Virus record (IMG/VR): IMGVR_UViG_3300037502_000670
Location: 1 to 58,760 of that record
Reading direction: 5' to 3' (one strand)
Origin: a virus
DNA: 58,760 nt
A model generated the notes under the pieces. That model saw only the letters and a program-made list of their open reading frames with translations. It was not told the DNA's origin and ran no database searches. Positions 9,441 to 30,246 of this stretch are shown here, one piece after another. A program made the position numbers and the translations under genes. The first letter of the stretch is position 1. Every line of letters begins with the position of its first letter.

Positions 9441-9485
9441 CCGTTGGTGCTATCGGAACGAAAGGGGGAGCCGCGACACTCCCCC
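9441..9485 (-). promoter_or_regulatory. Hairpin plus CCAACGGGAG ribosome-binding element before the primase gene
   Basis: On the minus strand a 7-bp stem (GGGGGAG / CTCCCCC, 9464-9485, loop 8) is followed by TTTCGTT and then by CCAACGGGAG. This is the weakest member of a recurrent hairpin-then-CCAACAGGAG arrangement seen at several early gene boundaries. It may act as a partial terminator or as a 5' end stabiliser; the sequence does not decide. Confidence 0.5.
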
Positions 9486-11067: not shown

Positions 11068-11466
11068 TTACTCCTCCTTTGCTGTTGGCTTACGCACGTT
11101 CACTTCAATGCGGGTGCCGTAGTTCACACCCGGTGGCACTGATTTCATCTGGTCGATATATCCACGCACGGCAGTCTTGCTGACGCGCTTCTCGAACATA
11201 TCGAAAGCATCGTTCTGCTTCACGAAGTTGAGCATCGCATCCCAATCCGCCACTGAAGCAAAGTCCACCGTGGTAAGAAACGCTGTGCCGTGCTTTGTCT
11301 TGAACGAGGTGACGCCATTGGCATCAGCCTGTTCCTTGATCCAGCTTTCTAGCTTGTCCATCTTGGCAGTGATCTCACCAGCCTTGGCTTCCGCTTCGGC
11401 TTTGATCTGCCCCTTCTTCTCACGCAGCTTCACATATGCTGCGATAGCATCATCTATGGTAACCAT
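11068..11466 (-). CDS. Conserved phage protein of unknown function, helical N-terminus
   Basis: 132 residues from ATG 11466, chosen because GCCAACAGGAGAAGGAACT lies directly upstream; an earlier in-frame start at 11487 would place this ribosome-binding site inside the gene. The N-terminal 50 residues are Lys/Glu/Ala-rich and likely a long helix; the rest contains WIKEQA and VSKTAVRGYI stretches that I associate with a widespread small phage family found beside SSB and SNF2 genes. No function is known to me. A Gam-like DNA-end protector is possible from the helical start, with low confidence. Confidence 0.75.
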   Translation of the reverse strand: MVTIDDAIAAYVKLREKKGQIKAEAEAKAGEITAKMDKLESWIKEQADANGVTSFKTKHGTAFLTTVDFASVADWDAMLNFVKQNDAFDMFEKRVSKTAVRGYIDQMKSVPPGVNYGTRIEVNVRKPTAKEE

Positions 11467-11489
11467 AGTTCCTTCTCCTGTTGGCAAAC

Positions 11490-15221: not shown

Positions 15222-17076
15222 AGTTCACTCCCATGTTGGCTTCACAATTCACAGGTAAGTCCGGTGCCCACACCGGAGGCGTACGCATCACGTCCTCCAC
15301 GAATGCCTTGGCTTCCTCTGCCTCGGCTTCATCCACCATGCACACCACCTCGTCGTGTACCTGCAACACGACCTTGTAACGCTGACCAATGCGAACCATC
15401 TGGTCGCACACGACGATACGAGCGAGAGCTTGGACGATGTTCTCCGTCATCTTGCCCCCGTAGATATATGTCCAGCCGTCGAACTCCTCGCCTGTCAGCT
15501 TGGCCTTGGTTGCGGCCAGCATGGCGCGGCTATCACCGACGAACTTGAACCCCTCCAACGTACGGTTCAGCAACGGGTAATGCAGTCGTAGACCATTAGG
15601 CAGACCAACATGGTCCTGCCCGAACGTGACACCCGGCCTGATCTCACCGCTCTCACCCATGACCATGCGCCCCAGTGCCCAGCCACATCGGTCCCATAGC
15701 GCCTGTATCATGGGATACTTGCTGCGGTAGACACCAACGATGGACTTGGCTTCTTCCTCGGTGAGATCGACCTTCATGCCGCCAGCGCCTAGTGACAGTG
15801 TAGTCTGGAACTTGATCCACCCCATGCCATAACCAAGCCCAAGCACAGCGGTCTTGCCAACGTGACGCTCCAGCTTCTCGGCCTTGGTAATCTTGCGACC
15901 ATACACATCAGTGGCAAACTCACAGTATACATCGCGTCCCTCGCGGAACGAATGCAACAGGCTTGCCTGTCCTGCCAGCCACGCCACGATGCGGGCTTCG
16001 ATCTGAGCACTGTCACATGCCAGAAGAAGTTTCCCTGCGGGAGCACACAGCGCACGGCGAAGCGTGCCGCCACGAGGCAGGTTCTGAAGGTTCATCTTGT
16101 CGCCACCAGAGAAGCGCCCGGTGTGAGCACCGTAGTAGTTGAGCATGATTGGCAGAGGCCCGCGCTCTGCCACCCCCATAAGCGCAGCGGTTCGCGTTTC
16201 CTCCAATGTGGATTTCACGCCAAGGCGGGCACCGACTATCGCTTGCACTCGGGTATCAGGATGTTCCAGTAACTTGGTAAACGCTGCGTCTGTCTTGCTA
16301 AAGGCAAAGGTTGAATTGCCAGTAGTCTTGCTGGTCTTCTTGGGTGGCTCGACACCCAGTGCGCTCAGTACATTTGCCAGCTTGTCGTTGCTCATCAGCT
16401 TGGACTTGATCTCTTCCTCGGTATCGCCAAGCCACGACAGTTCTTCCATGAGCAAGGACTTCTTGTTAACCACGTCAGTGTGGTGCTGAAGCAGCAACAT
16501 CTTGTCGAGCGTGATGGTCGGCTCTGTGTACATCCTGATAGTCTGGTCGATCAGCAGCAACTCGTTGGTGGGAAACTTGCCCTTGAGCTTCTGGAAAAGC
16601 TGGTAGGTCAGGTCCACATCGTTCAAACAGTACGCACCGTAGCGGTTCATCTCGTCGGCTGTGAAGTCAGCACGCCGCTTGCCAAGAGCATGGATCACTT
16701 CCTCGCCCTTCTCACCCAGCTTGTAGTAGCTGGCGAGTTTCTTCAGCGAACCGCCCACAGTTATGTTGTGCCATGGGCGTGCCATCGACAGCGTGTCGAG
16801 CCATAGCCTCGGCTTGATACCGAAATGCCACGACAGGATAGCGCCATCGAACACGGTGTTATGGCAGAGGATAGCCCGCTTGCTGTAGTCCAGCGACTTG
16901 AGAAACCGTCCGGGGTCACTGCCACTGTACCAGTCAGCAGGCTGGTCGTTCACCTTCACGCCCACACCGATCACTTCAAAGCGAGGATCACGGATATAGG
17001 CTTCGGTCGTCATCTTCGACAGGGAGAACTCCTTGTCGTAATAAGTTTCTAGGTCTATCGTTACAATGTCCATCAT
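15205..17076 (-). CDS. Family A DNA polymerase with 3'-5' exonuclease
   Basis: 623 residues from ATG 17076, chosen because it forms an ATGA overlap with the 37-residue gene before it; an upstream in-frame start at 17148 would add a non-homologous stretch. Exonuclease motifs: DLE (D8, E10), HNTVFD (N73, D77), YCLND (Y149, D153). Polymerase motifs: A, DSAQIEAR (D355, E360, R362); B, RHVGKTAVLGLGYG (R404, K408, Y416); C, HDE (574-576). This is a proofreading replicative polymerase without a 5' nuclease domain. It partners the primase-helicase at 6589-9429. Confidence 0.94.
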   Translation of the reverse strand: MMDIVTIDLETYYDKEFSLSKMTTEAYIRDPRFEVIGVGVKVNDQPADWYSGSDPGRFLKSLDYSKRAILCHNTVFDGAILSWHFGIKPRLWLDTLSMARPWHNITVGGSLKKLASYYKLGEKGEEVIHALGKRRADFTADEMNRYGAYCLNDVDLTYQLFQKLKGKFPTNELLLIDQTIRMYTEPTITLDKMLLLQHHTDVVNKKSLLMEELSWLGDTEEEIKSKLMSNDKLANVLSALGVEPPKKTSKTTGNSTFAFSKTDAAFTKLLEHPDTRVQAIVGARLGVKSTLEETRTAALMGVAERGPLPIMLNYYGAHTGRFSGGDKMNLQNLPRGGTLRRALCAPAGKLLLACDSAQIEARIVAWLAGQASLLHSFREGRDVYCEFATDVYGRKITKAEKLERHVGKTAVLGLGYGMGWIKFQTTLSLGAGGMKVDLTEEEAKSIVGVYRSKYPMIQALWDRCGWALGRMVMGESGEIRPGVTFGQDHVGLPNGLRLHYPLLNRTLEGFKFVGDSRAMLAATKAKLTGEEFDGWTYIYGGKMTENIVQALARIVVCDQMVRIGQRYKVVLQVHDEVVCMVDEAEAEEAKAFVEDVMRTPPVWAPDLPVNCEANMGVNYADCK

Positions 17077-20564: not shown

Positions 20565-20753
20565 TTATACTCCTGTGTTGGTCTGGATTGTAAATCTGTT
20601 ATTCTTGAAGCTCACACTGGCCTTGCCCAGTGCGATGTTCTGCAGAGCCACCGTCATGCAATGCACATCACGATCACGCTTTCGCAGTTTCAGTTCCAAG
20701 GCTATTGCCCACAGGCATAGCCCTGTGATAATCGCGTATTCCATGGGGAGCAT
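20565..20753 (-). CDS. Small membrane protein, 62 residues
   Basis: ATG 20753 is preceded by CCAACAGGAGAGG, so longer readings are unlikely. Residues 4-20 form one hydrophobic helix (MEYAIITGLCLWAIALEL), followed by a basic, beta-rich tail. Located between the metallopeptidase-like and Nmad5-like genes; function unknown. Confidence 0.7.
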   Translation of the reverse strand: MLPMEYAIITGLCLWAIALELKLRKRDRDVHCMTVALQNIALGKASVSFKNNRFTIQTNTGV

Positions 20754-20776
20754 TCGCAGCCTCTCCTGTTGGTGCT

Positions 20777-20808: not shown

Positions 20809-21960
20809 TTACATGCGGACAACTTCACCCCACGGGGCCTTGTCCGCACCATTGGTCACCCACAGCACAGGATGCTCCGGTGCAGGACCAAAGTCATCGC
20901 AGTACAGGTCGGTGAGGAACACGGTCGCCACCGGGTTGATGTTATGTTCCGTCATGTAGCGGAACACCGGGCTGAACGCCGTACCACCGCCGCCATGGGG
21001 AGCAATGGTTGCATCATCGCCACGCTCAAACTTATCGTAGTGACACACGGTGCTGTCGAAGTAGATCACATGAGCCTTGACCGGACACATGTCCTCCCAG
21101 ATTGCACGGAACTCGGCAGCGAACTCGTTCAACTCCTTCTCGCCCACTGAACCGGAGCAGTCGATGGCAACAGCCACCTCACCCAGCACCTCACCGCTGA
21201 TGGATGGCAGGTACATTCCCATGGCAGCCATACGCCTGTTGGGCTTGGCCCATGACCGGGTGTCGTTCTTCTGGCGCTGCACGAACTTACGCAGCACTTC
21301 ACGCCAGTCCACCTTGGGCTGGAGCGTTTGCGACACAAGCCGTTCCATGCCAGCGGAGAGCTTGCCCATCATCTTGGCAGCTTGCGCTGCCTGAGCCACC
21401 CGAACGCGCATCTCGGCCTGTTCCTGCGCTACTTCAGCGGGTGAACCCTCGGCTTCCACCACGTCATCGCCCGTACCGGGAATGGGGTTACCACCGGACT
21501 GACCACCGCCTTGACCGCCACTACCATTGCCTTCCGGAGGTTCCGGCAAGATGTCATAGATACCATCCGTGGTGCCCTTGCCAGCGTCGTATGTCGCCTT
21601 GTTGAGCAAGCCACCGGGAATAAATTTCCCGATCTTCTCGTCGGTGAGAAGCTGGTTGATGACGTAATCGCCAGCCATGTTCCACTTCTTGTGGTTGCGA
21701 CCCTTCACGCGGTAGTTGTGCTCGAACATGGGATGGAACACCTCATGCGCCATGAGAAACTTAAGCTGCTCGTCGTCCAGTTCCTCGCAGAACTTGGGGT
21801 TGAACTCGATCCACTTGCCATTGGTGGCAGCGGTGGGAAAGCGTTCGCTCACCCGCAATTCGAGGTTCAGTGCCAGCGTGCCGATAAACGGCTGTTCAAG
21901 GACCAGTGCGGTCCTTGCCTTGGCAAGGCGCTTTTCGAGGGGCATTGTGTTGTGTTTCAT
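20809..21960 (-). CDS. Metallopeptidase-like plus von Willebrand A-like protein (DUF2201 type)
   Basis: 383 residues from ATG 21960 (AGGAAAACGAA upstream, ATGA overlap with the gene before). The N-terminal part has HEVFH at 72-76 with following H81, the zincin-like helix of DUF2201/YwmD-type proteins. A Gly/Pro-rich linker covers about 140-175. The C-terminal VWA-like domain starts at about 260 with the MIDAS motif DCSGS (267-271) and a threonine-bearing GGGGTAFSP later. Such proteins are encoded next to MoxR-type AAA ATPases, here at 23890-24945, and probably form a complex that remodels protein or metal centres. Protease activity is not established for the family. Confidence 0.85.
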   Translation of the reverse strand: MKHNTMPLEKRLAKARTALVLEQPFIGTLALNLELRVSERFPTAATNGKWIEFNPKFCEELDDEQLKFLMAHEVFHPMFEHNYRVKGRNHKKWNMAGDYVINQLLTDEKIGKFIPGGLLNKATYDAGKGTTDGIYDILPEPPEGNGSGGQGGGQSGGNPIPGTGDDVVEAEGSPAEVAQEQAEMRVRVAQAAQAAKMMGKLSAGMERLVSQTLQPKVDWREVLRKFVQRQKNDTRSWAKPNRRMAAMGMYLPSISGEVLGEVAVAIDCSGSVGEKELNEFAAEFRAIWEDMCPVKAHVIYFDSTVCHYDKFERGDDATIAPHGGGGTAFSPVFRYMTEHNINPVATVFLTDLYCDDFGPAPEHPVLWVTNGADKAPWGEVVRM

Positions 21961-23889: not shown

Positions 23890-24945
23890 CTAAAAGAGAA
23901 CATCCTGATGTGCCACAGCCCACTTGGAAAACGCCGCACTGGATGCCAGTGACGGATCACGCCGCGTTGCAAGGCTGATAGCAAGCACACTGAACTCAGG
24001 CGGCATACGCTCCACATAGGTGCAAACCCGGTCGAAGTTGCCAGTGGTTGCCTTGCTGGCGAGAGCACCGGACAGCGCATAGAGGGTGGAGGGTTCCGTG
24101 GGCACCTCGGAACCAGTGGGGTTGAGCAGGATTGCATCGGGGTTAGGCAGCTTGCGCCAGATACGCAGGAAGCCCGTGAACTCAGCCGCAGGGCCTTCAC
24201 CCACGGCACCGCTGAACGTCTCGTACTCGGCCTCTGGCGGCACGTTACCGACCATGGCACCGACACCCTCCACCCATGACCGGGGAGTGGGGTTCTTGTC
24301 ACGCTGGGGGTCGAAATCGTGCAGCATGGCGGGCTTGAACCGGATGAAGCTGATAAGCTCCGGCTGGACGTTATGGTCAATCGCCCACTTGGTCCAGTCA
24401 TCAAGGTGCGTCTCGTACTCGTATGTCGTCTCGCGGTCGCTGAGATGGCTCAGCACCTTGTTGGCACCAGCCCGGTCCTTCTGGCGATTGCCGGTGGATA
24501 CGACCATCCAGCCTTCCTTCATCCGCACACCGTGGAGGTTACGTGCCTGCTGGACGTTGGCGAGGACTTTCTGCAACTCTGCACCGCACTGGTTGCGGTC
24601 ATCGAAGCAGATGAACCCCCGTTCCGGCAGGTCATCCCTGTACTCGGCAGGGAACCAGTCCGGCACCTTGTACCCAAACGTATTGCTCTCCGTGTTCAGC
24701 ATGTCAGGGATGCCGAAATCCTCCACCACCATGGTGGGCATGTGCTTCTCGACATAGCCGAACTCGTTATCCCCGAACACCTGACAGGAGCCGACATAGT
24801 GGTATGCCGTGGTCCCAGCCAGATCAGCCGCCGTATCGCGGACGAGGCTCGTTTTACCGCCACCGGGCGCACCTTCGATGATGACACTACGCTTGTTGCT
24901 GTTGTAGATGGCCTTGAGCGTAGCCTTGAGCAGTTCTGGACGCAT
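23890..24945 (-). CDS. MoxR-type AAA ATPase
   Basis: 351 residues. Walker A GAPGGGKT at 25-32; Walker B-like FICFDD at 111-116; a STGNRQKDRAG sensor-1 region follows the second third. The short, single AAA domain and the neighbouring VWA/metallopeptidase-like gene match MoxR-type chaperone pairs. It probably powers remodelling of a partner complex; in phages the target is unknown. ATG 24945 is preceded by CCAACAGGAAA. The leader holds two hairpins (24983-25016). Confidence 0.85.
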   Translation of the reverse strand: MRPELLKATLKAIYNSNKRSVIIEGAPGGGKTSLVRDTAADLAGTTAYHYVGSCQVFGDNEFGYVEKHMPTMVVEDFGIPDMLNTESNTFGYKVPDWFPAEYRDDLPERGFICFDDRNQCGAELQKVLANVQQARNLHGVRMKEGWMVVSTGNRQKDRAGANKVLSHLSDRETTYEYETHLDDWTKWAIDHNVQPELISFIRFKPAMLHDFDPQRDKNPTPRSWVEGVGAMVGNVPPEAEYETFSGAVGEGPAAEFTGFLRIWRKLPNPDAILLNPTGSEVPTEPSTLYALSGALASKATTGNFDRVCTYVERMPPEFSVLAISLATRRDPSLASSAAFSKWAVAHQDVLF

Positions 24946-24982
24946 TCTATGTGTTTCCTGTTGGTTGTTGTGGTCTCATCAG

Positions 24983-26130: not shown

Positions 26131-26160
26131 ATTGTGCCACGGGGCGGGGCGGCTTGTCAA
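26131..26160 (-). promoter_or_regulatory. Early minus-strand sigma-70-like promoter
   Basis: Minus strand: -35 TTGACA (26160-26155), 18-base GC-rich spacer, -10 CACAAT (26136-26131). Predicted start near 26124 leaves a leader of about 32 bases with AAGGAAC before ATG 26092. It would drive the whole leftward early arm. The -35 is perfect; the -10 matches four of six. Confidence 0.6.
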
Positions 26161-26177
26161 AGCGGCGGCCTTAAGAT

Positions 26178-26678
26178 GTGTAAGGTTTGTATAGTTTGAT
26201 AGTGGTGAAGGTGTAAGGTTTGTAAAGTTGTTAAGGCAAGGCGTGTAAAGTAGCAAAAATGATTTGTAAAGTAGCAAAAAATGGAGGCGGGTATCTGAGT
26301 ATTAGAGATAGTGAATATAGGAACAAAACCAATGGGTTAGTGTGTAAAGAAAGGCAGGTATCTAAACTATCTAAGTTTTTGGAGGTAATGTGGTGCTAAA
26401 AAATTTTTTGGACGAATGTCCCAGTTAAGTTGTAAAGCAGTGTCGTTCTACATTTGTTCCAAGAATTATTTTGCGGTGTCGTGTAACCCAAAAACCCTTA
26501 TTATTTAGATTTTCTGTCTAATATAATATATATATATAGGAGCCAACCCCTTGGTTTTACTGCGTTTCCTTGGTGTAAAGTGTAAACTTCTAGGAATAAT
26601 GTCGGTTAAGTTTCGTTTTGCTAGTTTACATTGTCTAGATACTTAACAAGTTTACACAGCTAGATGCCCAAGTTTACA
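26178..26678. other. Candidate replication origin: heptamer array, iterons and AT tract
   Basis: No gene is seen here. Direct repeats: GTGTAAGGTTTGTA at 26178-26191 and 26211-26224 (33-base period); TGTAAAGTAGCAAAAA at 26244-26259 and 26265-26280 (21-base period). TGTAAAG also at 26221, 26343, 26431 and 26574, then TGTAAAC at 26581; beyond about 26600 the motif continues on the other strand (GTTTACA at 26624, 26650, 26672). A run of almost pure A/T lies at 26499-26538. Repeats plus AT-rich unwinding tract at the start of the early operon is the classic layout of an iteron origin, also of a regulator-binding array. Confidence 0.65.
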
Positions 26679-26817
26679 GTGTTAAGTCGTGTTAACGCGC
26701 GCATAATGCGACCTATAGGCCCCCGACGTATGGTCGAGCGATAGCGAGACCGAACCGCGCAGCAACTAGAGGCTTCGACGTTTAGAGGCGGTCAGTGCCC
26801 GCTGGTTCGCAGACAAC
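26679..26817. other. Noncoding stretch between origin array and terminator
   Basis: No gene, no clear promoter. It contains GTGTTAAC and GCGCGC near 26690-26703 and a weak inverted pair GGTC...GACC around 26733-26752. Composition shifts from AT-rich to GC-rich across it. Confidence 0.4.
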
Positions 26818-26848: not shown

Positions 26849-26902
26849 GTAGATGATAACCAGTCCGATAGCGACGAAGAGTAGATAGAATGCAAGTGTC
26901 AT
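26834..26902 (-). CDS. Membrane micro-peptide, 22 residues
   Basis: MTLAFYLLFVAIGLVIIYGW plus two residues: one transmembrane helix. CAACAGGAGTGGAACAC lies upstream of ATG 26902, the same strong ribosome-binding element as real neighbouring genes. The stop lies in the terminator loop. Size makes it uncertain, but the signal context is good. Confidence 0.55.
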   Translation of the reverse strand: MTLAFYLLFVAIGLVIIYGWRA

Positions 26903-26924
26903 GTGTTCCACTCCTGTTGAGGTA

Positions 26925-27124: not shown

Positions 27125-27151
27125 AGGCAATTCTCCTGTTGGGTTGATTGT

Positions 27152-27757: not shown

Positions 27758-27786
27758 TTGACACCTAGCCCGACCGCAGACATAAT
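27758..27786 (+). promoter_or_regulatory. Late sigma-70-like promoter for the packaging genes
   Basis: TTGACA (27758-27763), 17-base spacer, CATAAT (27781-27786). The -10 ends only 8 bases before the ATG at 27795, so transcription should begin at 27793 or 27795 and give a leaderless or nearly leaderless message. Two heptamer copies lie 10-30 bases upstream. Confidence 0.75.
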
Positions 27787-28666: not shown

Positions 28667-30058
28667 ATGGCACTTGAGATAGACTATACGCCTCCGAAGA
28701 CGGGCAAGCTGTTCATGGAGTGCGATGCAAGGATGCGCGTGCTCATGGGCCCGGTGGGCTCCGGCAAGTCGGTCACCTGCTCGTTCGAGATCATCCGCCG
28801 GGCGTCCATGCAAAAGCCAGACGCATCTGGCCGCAGGCGCAGCCGCTGGGCCATCGTGCGTGAAACCGCACGGCAGTTGCAGGATACGACGATAAAGACG
28901 TTCCTCGACTGGTTCCCGCCGGGGCCGTGCGGGCAGTTCATGCGCACGACGAAGACCTACTTTTTCAAGGTCGGGGATGTCGAGGCAGAGATCATGTTCC
29001 GCGCATTGGATGACGCGGATGACGTGGCGAACCTGAACTCGCTGGAGTTGACAGGCGCGTGGTTCAACGAGTGCCGGGATATTGACCCGGCGATTGTCGA
29101 TGCGATGTCAAAGCGTATCGGTCGTTTTCCCAGTGCCAAGGATGGCGGGCCGTCGTGGTTTGGGATGTGGGGGGATACCAACCCGCCGACCATGGATACG
29201 TGGTGGTACTACCAGCTTGAGCATCTGGACCCCACGGACGGGGTGAGCCTCAACGACAATGGCTGGGAAGTGTTCAAGCAGCCGTCTGGTCGCAGTATTT
29301 ACGCCGAGAATATCGAGAACCTGCCGGAAGGGTACTATGACACACAGGGCCGATCCGAAGAATATATCCGTGTGTACATTGACGGCGAATATGGCCTTAG
29401 CCTCGCTGGTATGCCTGTCTACAAGTATTTCCGGCCTGACTACCATATGGCTGGCGAACGTCTCAGGGCTTTCACTGGCGGTACTCGGCCTGTCGTCGTC
29501 GGTATGGACTTGGGGCTTACCCCCGCAGCAGTCATCGGACAGCAGGACCCGCGCGGACGCGCGCTGATAATGGCCGAGTGCGTCAGCTACGACATGGGTA
29601 TCCAGCGATTTGTCCGGACGATGCTCAAGCCGTTGCTGTATGAGCGGTTTTCGGGATGCCCCGTGCTCGTAGTGGTTGACCCGGCAGGTACGGCGAGGGC
29701 GCAGACGGACGAGCGCAGCGCGGTTGACATCGTGAAAGCCGAGGGGTTGCGGGTCATTCCGGCGCGGACGAACGCCATCAGTGCGCGTATCTCGGCAGTG
29801 GATGACTACCTCATGCGGCAGGTCGATGGCGACCCGGCATTCATCGTGGACCCGTCATGCACACACCTCAAGGCGGCGATGATGGGTGGGTACCGGTACA
29901 AGCCAACAGGTGACAACGCCATCGACAAGAACAAGCACTCGCACGTTGCTGAAGCCCTGCAATATCTTTGTCTGCATTTGAGCAATGCCAGCGGCGATTT
30001 CATGTACCAGACGCTCAAGCGCGACATTCGCCCGGTTGTCTCTGCAGGATGGACTTGA
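28667..30058 (+). CDS. Terminase large subunit (ATPase-nuclease)
   Basis: 463 residues. Walker A GPVGSGKS at 28-35; a Walker B-type strand ending GAWFNE with E135 as catalytic carboxylate; nuclease acidic residues in GMDLGL (D281) and VVVDPAGTA (D338), with a C-terminal HVAEALQY stretch. It pumps DNA into the procapsid and cuts concatemers. A strong terminator follows at 30148-30176. The compact size is close to terminases of P22-like and related podoviruses. Confidence 0.93.
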   Translation: MALEIDYTPPKTGKLFMECDARMRVLMGPVGSGKSVTCSFEIIRRASMQKPDASGRRRSRWAIVRETARQLQDTTIKTFLDWFPPGPCGQFMRTTKTYFFKVGDVEAEIMFRALDDADDVANLNSLELTGAWFNECRDIDPAIVDAMSKRIGRFPSAKDGGPSWFGMWGDTNPPTMDTWWYYQLEHLDPTDGVSLNDNGWEVFKQPSGRSIYAENIENLPEGYYDTQGRSEEYIRVYIDGEYGLSLAGMPVYKYFRPDYHMAGERLRAFTGGTRPVVVGMDLGLTPAAVIGQQDPRGRALIMAECVSYDMGIQRFVRTMLKPLLYERFSGCPVLVVVDPAGTARAQTDERSAVDIVKAEGLRVIPARTNAISARISAVDDYLMRQVDGDPAFIVDPSCTHLKAAMMGGYRYKPTGDNAIDKNKHSHVAEALQYLCLHLSNASGDFMYQTLKRDIRPVVSAGWT

Positions 30059-30088
30059 CTTGCGGCGGGCGGTGTAGCATTCTCGTCC

Positions 30089-30176
30089 TGCCGGGGGGTT
30101 ATGTCCACCCATCCCTCGGCACACACCTCCTCCCCTGTTGGAACTTGCCCCGGTAGCCGCCGCTACCGGGGTTTTT
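30089..30176 (+). ncRNA. Candidate small structured RNA after the large terminase gene
   Basis: Plus strand: a first stem-loop TGCCGGGGG...CCCTCGGCA (30090-30122), a single-stranded pyrimidine stretch CCTCCTCCCCTGTTGG (30126-30141), then a perfect terminator hairpin. The stretch contains CCTGTTGG, the exact complement of the CCAACAGG in the ribosome-binding elements of four early genes. A possible promoter TTGACT-N17-CATTCT lies at 30055-30083. Alternatively it is the processed 3' end of the terminase message. The opposite reading, an inverted copy of the early hairpin-plus-binding-site element, is also possible. Confidence 0.4.
30148..30176 (+). terminator. Rho-independent terminator after the terminase gene
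   Basis: Perfect 10-bp stem CCCCGGTAGC/GCTACCGGGG, loop CGCC, then TTTTT (30172-30176). It ends the packaging transcript, so genes from 30247 need read-through or a further promoter; only weak candidates are visible between 30177 and 30246. Confidence 0.93.
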
Positions 30177-30246
30177 ATGCTGTTGCATAGCGCGCGCAGT
30201 TGGTGTACCGTGGGGCAGACTGACCATAACCACAAGGGTTTAGCCG

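Follow-up and report, generated by a model that had tools for sequence, protein, structure and literature searches.

Does the DNA behind the terminase large subunit gene (terL) of an uncultured phage encode a small RNA, and is that RNA directed against the phage's own early genes? The question was raised by a sequence-only reading of a 58,760-base IMG/VR virus record (the window, i.e., the whole stretch of DNA analyzed here), which had claimed at this locus a small RNA complementary to a ribosome-binding element that recurs before early genes. In the window, the minus strand from ~27.5 kb down to 6.6 kb holds the early genes (i.e., primase/helicase, helicase, DNA polymerase A [PolA], exonuclease-like, and nucleotide metabolism genes), and the plus strand holds the terminase and structural genes. 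We used terL (28667 to 30058, plus strand; PHROG 2, E value of 8.5e-28; Pfam Terminase_3) as the anchor of comparison. Gene starts were taken from our own gene caller, which favors starts with a Shine-Dalgarno (SD) sequence equally across all genomes. A promoter scan detected sigma-70-like promoters facing both directions at the divide between early and late genes (TTGACA-17-CATATT, 27566 to 27538, minus strand; TTGACA-17-CATAAT, 27758 to 27786, plus strand), and putative promoters of this type precede terS-terL. An ATPase (PHROG 1297; 23890 to 24945, minus strand) and a metallopeptidase-like/VWA protein (DUF2201; 20809 to 21960, minus strand) sit among the early genes and form a MoxR-VWA-like pair. 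Between early gene blocks, positions 26151 to 26750 are AT-rich (62% A+T), contain several TTTACA repeats, and represent a candidate replication origin.

The proposed small RNA (~84 to 88 nt; 30089 to 30176, plus strand) was delimited by folding and a terminator scan and has 97 homologous contexts. It consists of a 5' hairpin (30089 to 30121) with 11 pairs (30089 to 30099 with 30111 to 30121; loop, 30100 to 30110), a C/U-rich linker (30122 to 30146) that is largely unpaired according to the unpaired probabilities, and an intrinsic terminator (30147 to 30176) with an 11-bp stem (30147 to 30172) and T5 (30172 to 30176). The fold and the terminator scan thus bear out the stem-loop, open pyrimidine stretch, and terminator with five T that had been described from the letters. 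The linker holds one copy of the anti-SD sequence CCUCCUCCC (30126 to 30134), followed by the seed CCTGTTGG, which had been correctly placed at 30134 to 30141; the CCTCC noted earlier also lies in the linker. What fails is the claimed unbroken extension of the pairing into AGGAG, because the RNA has two extra C relative to the perfect partner CTCCTGTTGG and CCUCC meets AGGAG only across a bulge. The folding energy z-score was −2.45 (30059 to 30176). In the window, Rfam 15 gave no match at the gathering score, and a tRNA scan returned nothing. A small open reading frame inside the RNA was rejected as a candidate (a sense SD-plus-ATG frame occurs in 1 of 97 relatives).

The window contains 11 copies of the complement of the seed, CCAACAGG, versus 2.30 expected, a count reached by none of 100 shuffles; the shorter CAACAGG alone was not significantly enriched there (14 versus 8.8 expected). 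All four minus-strand copies that had been reported just upstream of starts are indeed so placed. These copies are located in the leader of an early gene encoding 132 amino acids (aa) (11477 to 11484; gene, 11466 to 11068; the strongest conserved target family), before the ATG at 20753 of a small early gene (20765 to 20772; motif search), in the leader of the ATPase gene noted above (24957 to 24964; gene, 24945 to 23890; motif search), and in the leader of another early gene (27135 to 27142; gene, 27124 to 26951; motif search and duplex prediction). The near match CAACAGG (26913 to 26919) was likewise confirmed just before a small early ORF starting at 26901 (predicted duplex, −16.6), and the one at 9441 to 9447, in the leader of the primase/helicase gene (9429 to 6589; predicted duplex, −17.1), is present as the one-base variant CCAACGG. 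The earlier reading had overlooked three partial copies on this strand, namely CCAACAGC (CCAACAG plus GGAGGAG) in the leader preceding early gene 11067 to 10777 (11082 to 11088; the best predicted duplex, −22.7), CCAACA in the leader preceding early gene 15221 to 15048 (15234 to 15239; −20.1), and one at 20581 to 20576, as well as three further minus-strand copies of CCAACAGG (12819, 21242, and 22726) that fall inside genes. Across the window, the mean linker pairing was −13.3 kcal/mol for early leaders versus −10.3 kcal/mol for late leaders (P = 0.004), and early leaders made up 15 of the 18 best predicted duplexes. The predicted pairing spans the SD sequence, often as far as the start codon, and the predicted target genes lie 3 to 20 kb from the RNA locus; complementarity of the seed to ribosome-binding sites of genes encoded elsewhere is a mark of trans-acting sRNAs. 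In several early leaders (minus-strand positions 27142, 26919, 20772, and 9447), the CAACAGG binding site is immediately preceded by a strong hairpin that is rich in G+C and lacks a T run; the hairpin before gene 27124 to 26951 has a folding energy of −31 kcal/mol.

A TerL search retrieved 80 relatives at 80 to 90% identity, and further relatives were reached via other seeds. A similar unit (i.e., a C/U-rich core plus a terminator) was found behind terL in 97 of 104 distinct contexts, and a pattern for its commonest form matched the site behind terL in 33 of 35 distinct IMG/VR contexts. Two relatives (G008 and G009) lack the unit right behind terL and carry it further downstream, past intervening sequence; another relative (G012) is without the element. 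In the early region of G008 (the contig behind L039), about eight early leaders have the same GCCCGCGCCGCTT element, and seven leaders have TCTGGGAGAG-type binding sites. Across this fast-changing family, the recurrent features are a promoter-like site, an unpaired anti-SD core, and a terminator that is usually followed by a new promoter. CTCC was present in 91 of 97 units (53.7 in shuffles; 8 of 97 on the reverse strand), and CACCTCC occurred 32 times in these units versus 0.6 expected, with no occurrence on the reverse strand. The core is often UUGUCACCUCC, and its part in common with the 16S rRNA 3' end is UCACCUCC, a sequence identical to that end and present in most of the family. The claim that the motif is the complement of CCAACAGG holds in the window, but the part that is constant across the family is the anti-SD UCACCUCC, and the flanking bases are specific to each phage. 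The linker core is kept in L001 to L005 while flanks and stems vary. Consensus folding of the whole family aligned the terminator stem alone, with no single rigid consensus structure, because stems and lengths vary freely. A DNA search of cultured phages gave no match; the TerL proteins of cultured relatives are at most 43% identical, and in the five with an inspected downstream region (Rollin, RHph_TM3_14A, Hodr, VA-RY-3, and BcepC6B) a gene is annotated directly or shortly after terL. Close TerL proteins in bacterial genomes were limited to two contigs (L290 and L291), in an actinobacterium metagenome-assembled genome (MAG) and a Paraglaciecola MAG, which are probably phage contigs of doubtful binning.

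The strong enrichment of the anti-SD core and its identity to the 16S rRNA 3' end in most of the family would also be expected if the virus used the RNA as a decoy 16S rRNA tail that captures strong SD sequences generally, mainly to shut off host translation, with the match to early leaders as a side effect. Since any anti-SD sequence pairs with any SD sequence, the decisive test is lineage specificity. We compared the pairing of each phage's core with its own early leaders and with those of other lineages by a double-centered permutation, leaving out G008, G009, G012, and G022 (the last had too few early genes). In the nine discovery lineages with hand-set cores, pairing was stronger with own than with foreign early leaders (P = 0.0006), and late leaders showed no own preference (P = 0.81). 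The preference was found again with automatically set cores, for which eight terminator stems were placed by eye (P = 0.002), and in 18 further lineages (P = 0.006; own better in 15 of 18). For all 27 lineages, own pairing was better in 22 (P = 0.00015; the permutation P values are approximate, as the lineages are related but were treated as exchangeable), and late leaders were at chance (own-negative in 13 of 27 lineages). The observed value of −0.14 was not approached by shuffled cores (0.001 ± 0.045) or by pseudo-cores (0.023 ± 0.054), i.e., anti-SD-like segments elsewhere in the same genomes, away from gene starts. The core showed no own match with early leaders in G037, G040, and G041.

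Particular leaders were seen to change together with the core. CAACAG was present in 11 of 84 early leaders and 0 of 83 late leaders in the window's CCTGTTGG lineage, versus 10 of 879 and 4 of 855 elsewhere; in phages whose core is UUGUCACC, GTGACA was present in 18 of 294 early and 0 of 272 late leaders; and AGGTGAC was found in nine early leaders and no late leader of phages with the TTGTCACC core. The clearest cases are at orthologous genes (ortholog-family permutation: an early gene of 132 to 148 aa adjoining the helicase gene, P < 0.0001; helicase, P = 0.0007; PolA, P = 0.0022). The leader of the 132- to 148-aa gene pairs at −20.8 kcal/mol with its own core versus −12.1 kcal/mol with foreign cores. 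This leader and the RNA core switch together from GCCAACAGGAG and CCUGUUGG in the window to AGACAAGG and CUUGUCUCC in G002 and G005, AGGUGACA and UUGUCACCU in G003, G004, and G011, and GGUGAUGACAA and UUGUCAU in G019. In G028, where the core CACCCUC replaces CACCUCC, the PolA leader is GAGGGUGAC. Because all hosts have an identical 16S tail, a general decoy cannot explain lineage-specific covariation with a phage's own early leaders, with none at late leaders, or the confinement of AGGTGAC to matching early leaders, and we regard it as unlikely. The sequence-only reading had named compensatory change in related phages as a check on its claim; the covariation of seed and leader over 27 lineages supplies it, and the comparison supports a terminated unit with a matching linker.

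The position of the unit suggests two other readings. Lambda 6S RNA, the pR' leader, is a short terminated RNA located just before the late genes, and complementarity to early leaders is not part of that system. The element, in which a promoter, a short RNA, and a terminator likewise directly precede late genes, could be such a late-operon leader, with antitermination into the structural genes. However, at the position equivalent to a window site that may serve the downstream late genes as a promoter of their own (TTGCAT-17-TACCGT, 30183 to 30211, plus strand; read from the sequence), relatives carry a second strong promoter-like site right after the terminator (TTGACA-17-TATAAC or similar), and neither anti-SD enrichment nor covariation with early leaders is predicted by this reading, which we consider improbable. 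In relatives such as L022, L067, and L030, the spacer of this strong late promoter (TTGACA-17-TATAAC or similar) holds a conserved TGTATACTTG with the palindrome GTATAC, possibly a regulator site.

It is very improbable, in our estimation, that the element is the ordinary 3' end of the terL transcript, i.e., a C-rich, possibly Rho-loading stretch plus a terminator with complementarity due to chance or composition. The element does sit between terL and the next gene, and the window's own promoter is weak: the promoter-like TTGACT-17-CATTCT (30055 to 30083, plus strand; read from the sequence), which overlaps the terL stop codon TGA (30056 to 30058), matches the consensus at 8 of 12 positions, so that the promoter scan missed it, and is weaker than the promoters of relatives. 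However, the shuffled-core and pseudo-core controls lack the pairing effect, and in G008 and G009 the unit is retained away from terL, which the mere end of a terL transcript would not require. The spacing of the promoter-like site is repeated in L001 to L005. In 76 of 88 relatives, the terL stop codon would supply an extended −10 element (TGA-TAnnnT, e.g., TGA-TATGAT), and TTG is present at the −35 place in 52 of 88; the −35 element of relatives lies in terL coding sequence, so coding constraint is absent only from the −10 element. The first hairpin (ACTGC..GCAGT) of the largest group begins exactly at the expected transcription start. It is possible that the window RNA is processed out of terL mRNA rather than made from its own promoter.

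The earlier rival reading, that the element is an inverted copy of the early hairpin-plus-binding-site module working now or formerly on the minus strand, has the least chance of all: its reverse complement does read hairpin-CCAACAGGGGAGGAGG and the antisense frame is open in the window, but L004 has no open frame after it, CTCC lies on the other strand in 8 of 97 relatives, only 12 of 97 could accommodate an antisense SD-plus-ATG frame of 20 codons, no conserved minus-strand protein or leader was found at the element in relatives, and the family shows a homologous position with changing sequence.

The small RNA reading combines traits of several known systems. The alphaproteobacterial alpha-r14 or "cuckoo" sRNAs (e.g., NfeR1 of Sinorhizobium), which have three hairpins each bearing CCUCCUCCC, share the exposed anti-SD CCUCCUCCC within an otherwise variable small RNA (PMC10746234). 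Here, in contrast, the RNA is phage encoded, has one linker copy between hairpins, is tuned to its own early leaders, and matches no curated family model (Rfam 15, window); other relatives have other cores. Like PreS of lambda, which targets host dnaN, and VpdS of VP882, which works with Hfq on phage and host mRNAs, it would be a short RNA encoded by a phage and directed in trans at mRNAs during infection (PMC12197685), but its predicted targets are many early replication genes of its own phage, and the pairing coevolves. The c4 RNA (P1/P7) and the antisense sar RNA (P22) pair with phage mRNA and block translation, c4 around the ribosome-binding site (PMC12197685); each controls one gene, ant, whereas several targets are predicted here. 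Cis-antisense RNAs (OOP and sar) are encoded opposite their target, in contrast to targets 3 to 20 kb away. Phage trans-acting sRNAs, translation-blocking phage RNAs, and bacterial anti-SD sRNAs are known; the open-access literature searched yielded neither a phage sRNA of the anti-SD type directed at early genes nor a phage family in which an anti-SD RNA coevolves with many early leaders of the same phage.

The sequences themselves show how the element is built, that it belongs to a family, where it usually lies, and that it has coevolved with early and not late leaders; transcription of the RNA, repression by pairing, and its timing are inferred. The element is probably a phage-encoded sRNA that acts in trans to keep ribosomes from entering early replication mRNAs. 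The protected 5' hairpin and the terminator hairpin would keep the C/U-rich linker open, and the linker, with an anti-SD core like the 16S rRNA 3' tail plus a few phage-specific bases, would pair with ribosome-binding sites before the phage's own early genes on the minus strand (i.e., the 132-aa gene beside the helicase gene, helicase, DNA polymerase A, primase, and others). Because the predicted pairing covers the SD sequence and often the start codon, a block of ribosome binding is, by established sRNA biology, the most likely effect. With ribosomes kept off early mRNAs, synthesis of early replication proteins would drop while the packaging and structural program takes over. The promoters resemble host sigma-70 sites, so the RNA may be made early rather than late, damping early genes from the start, and because the core mimics 16S rRNA, host mRNAs may also be hit, as equal or main targets.

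Early shut-off in lytic phages is usually ascribed to transcription factors, polymerases, or nucleases. We give an even chance to the broader reading that a widespread family of uncultured phages encodes a mimic of the 16S tail, retuned in each lineage, as an RNA switch that ends translation of replication genes. The phage group numbers hundreds of members from the environment, and our searches found no close relative in culture; if the reading is true, an anti-SD RNA coevolving with many early leaders would provide this group with an early-to-late switch at the RNA level.
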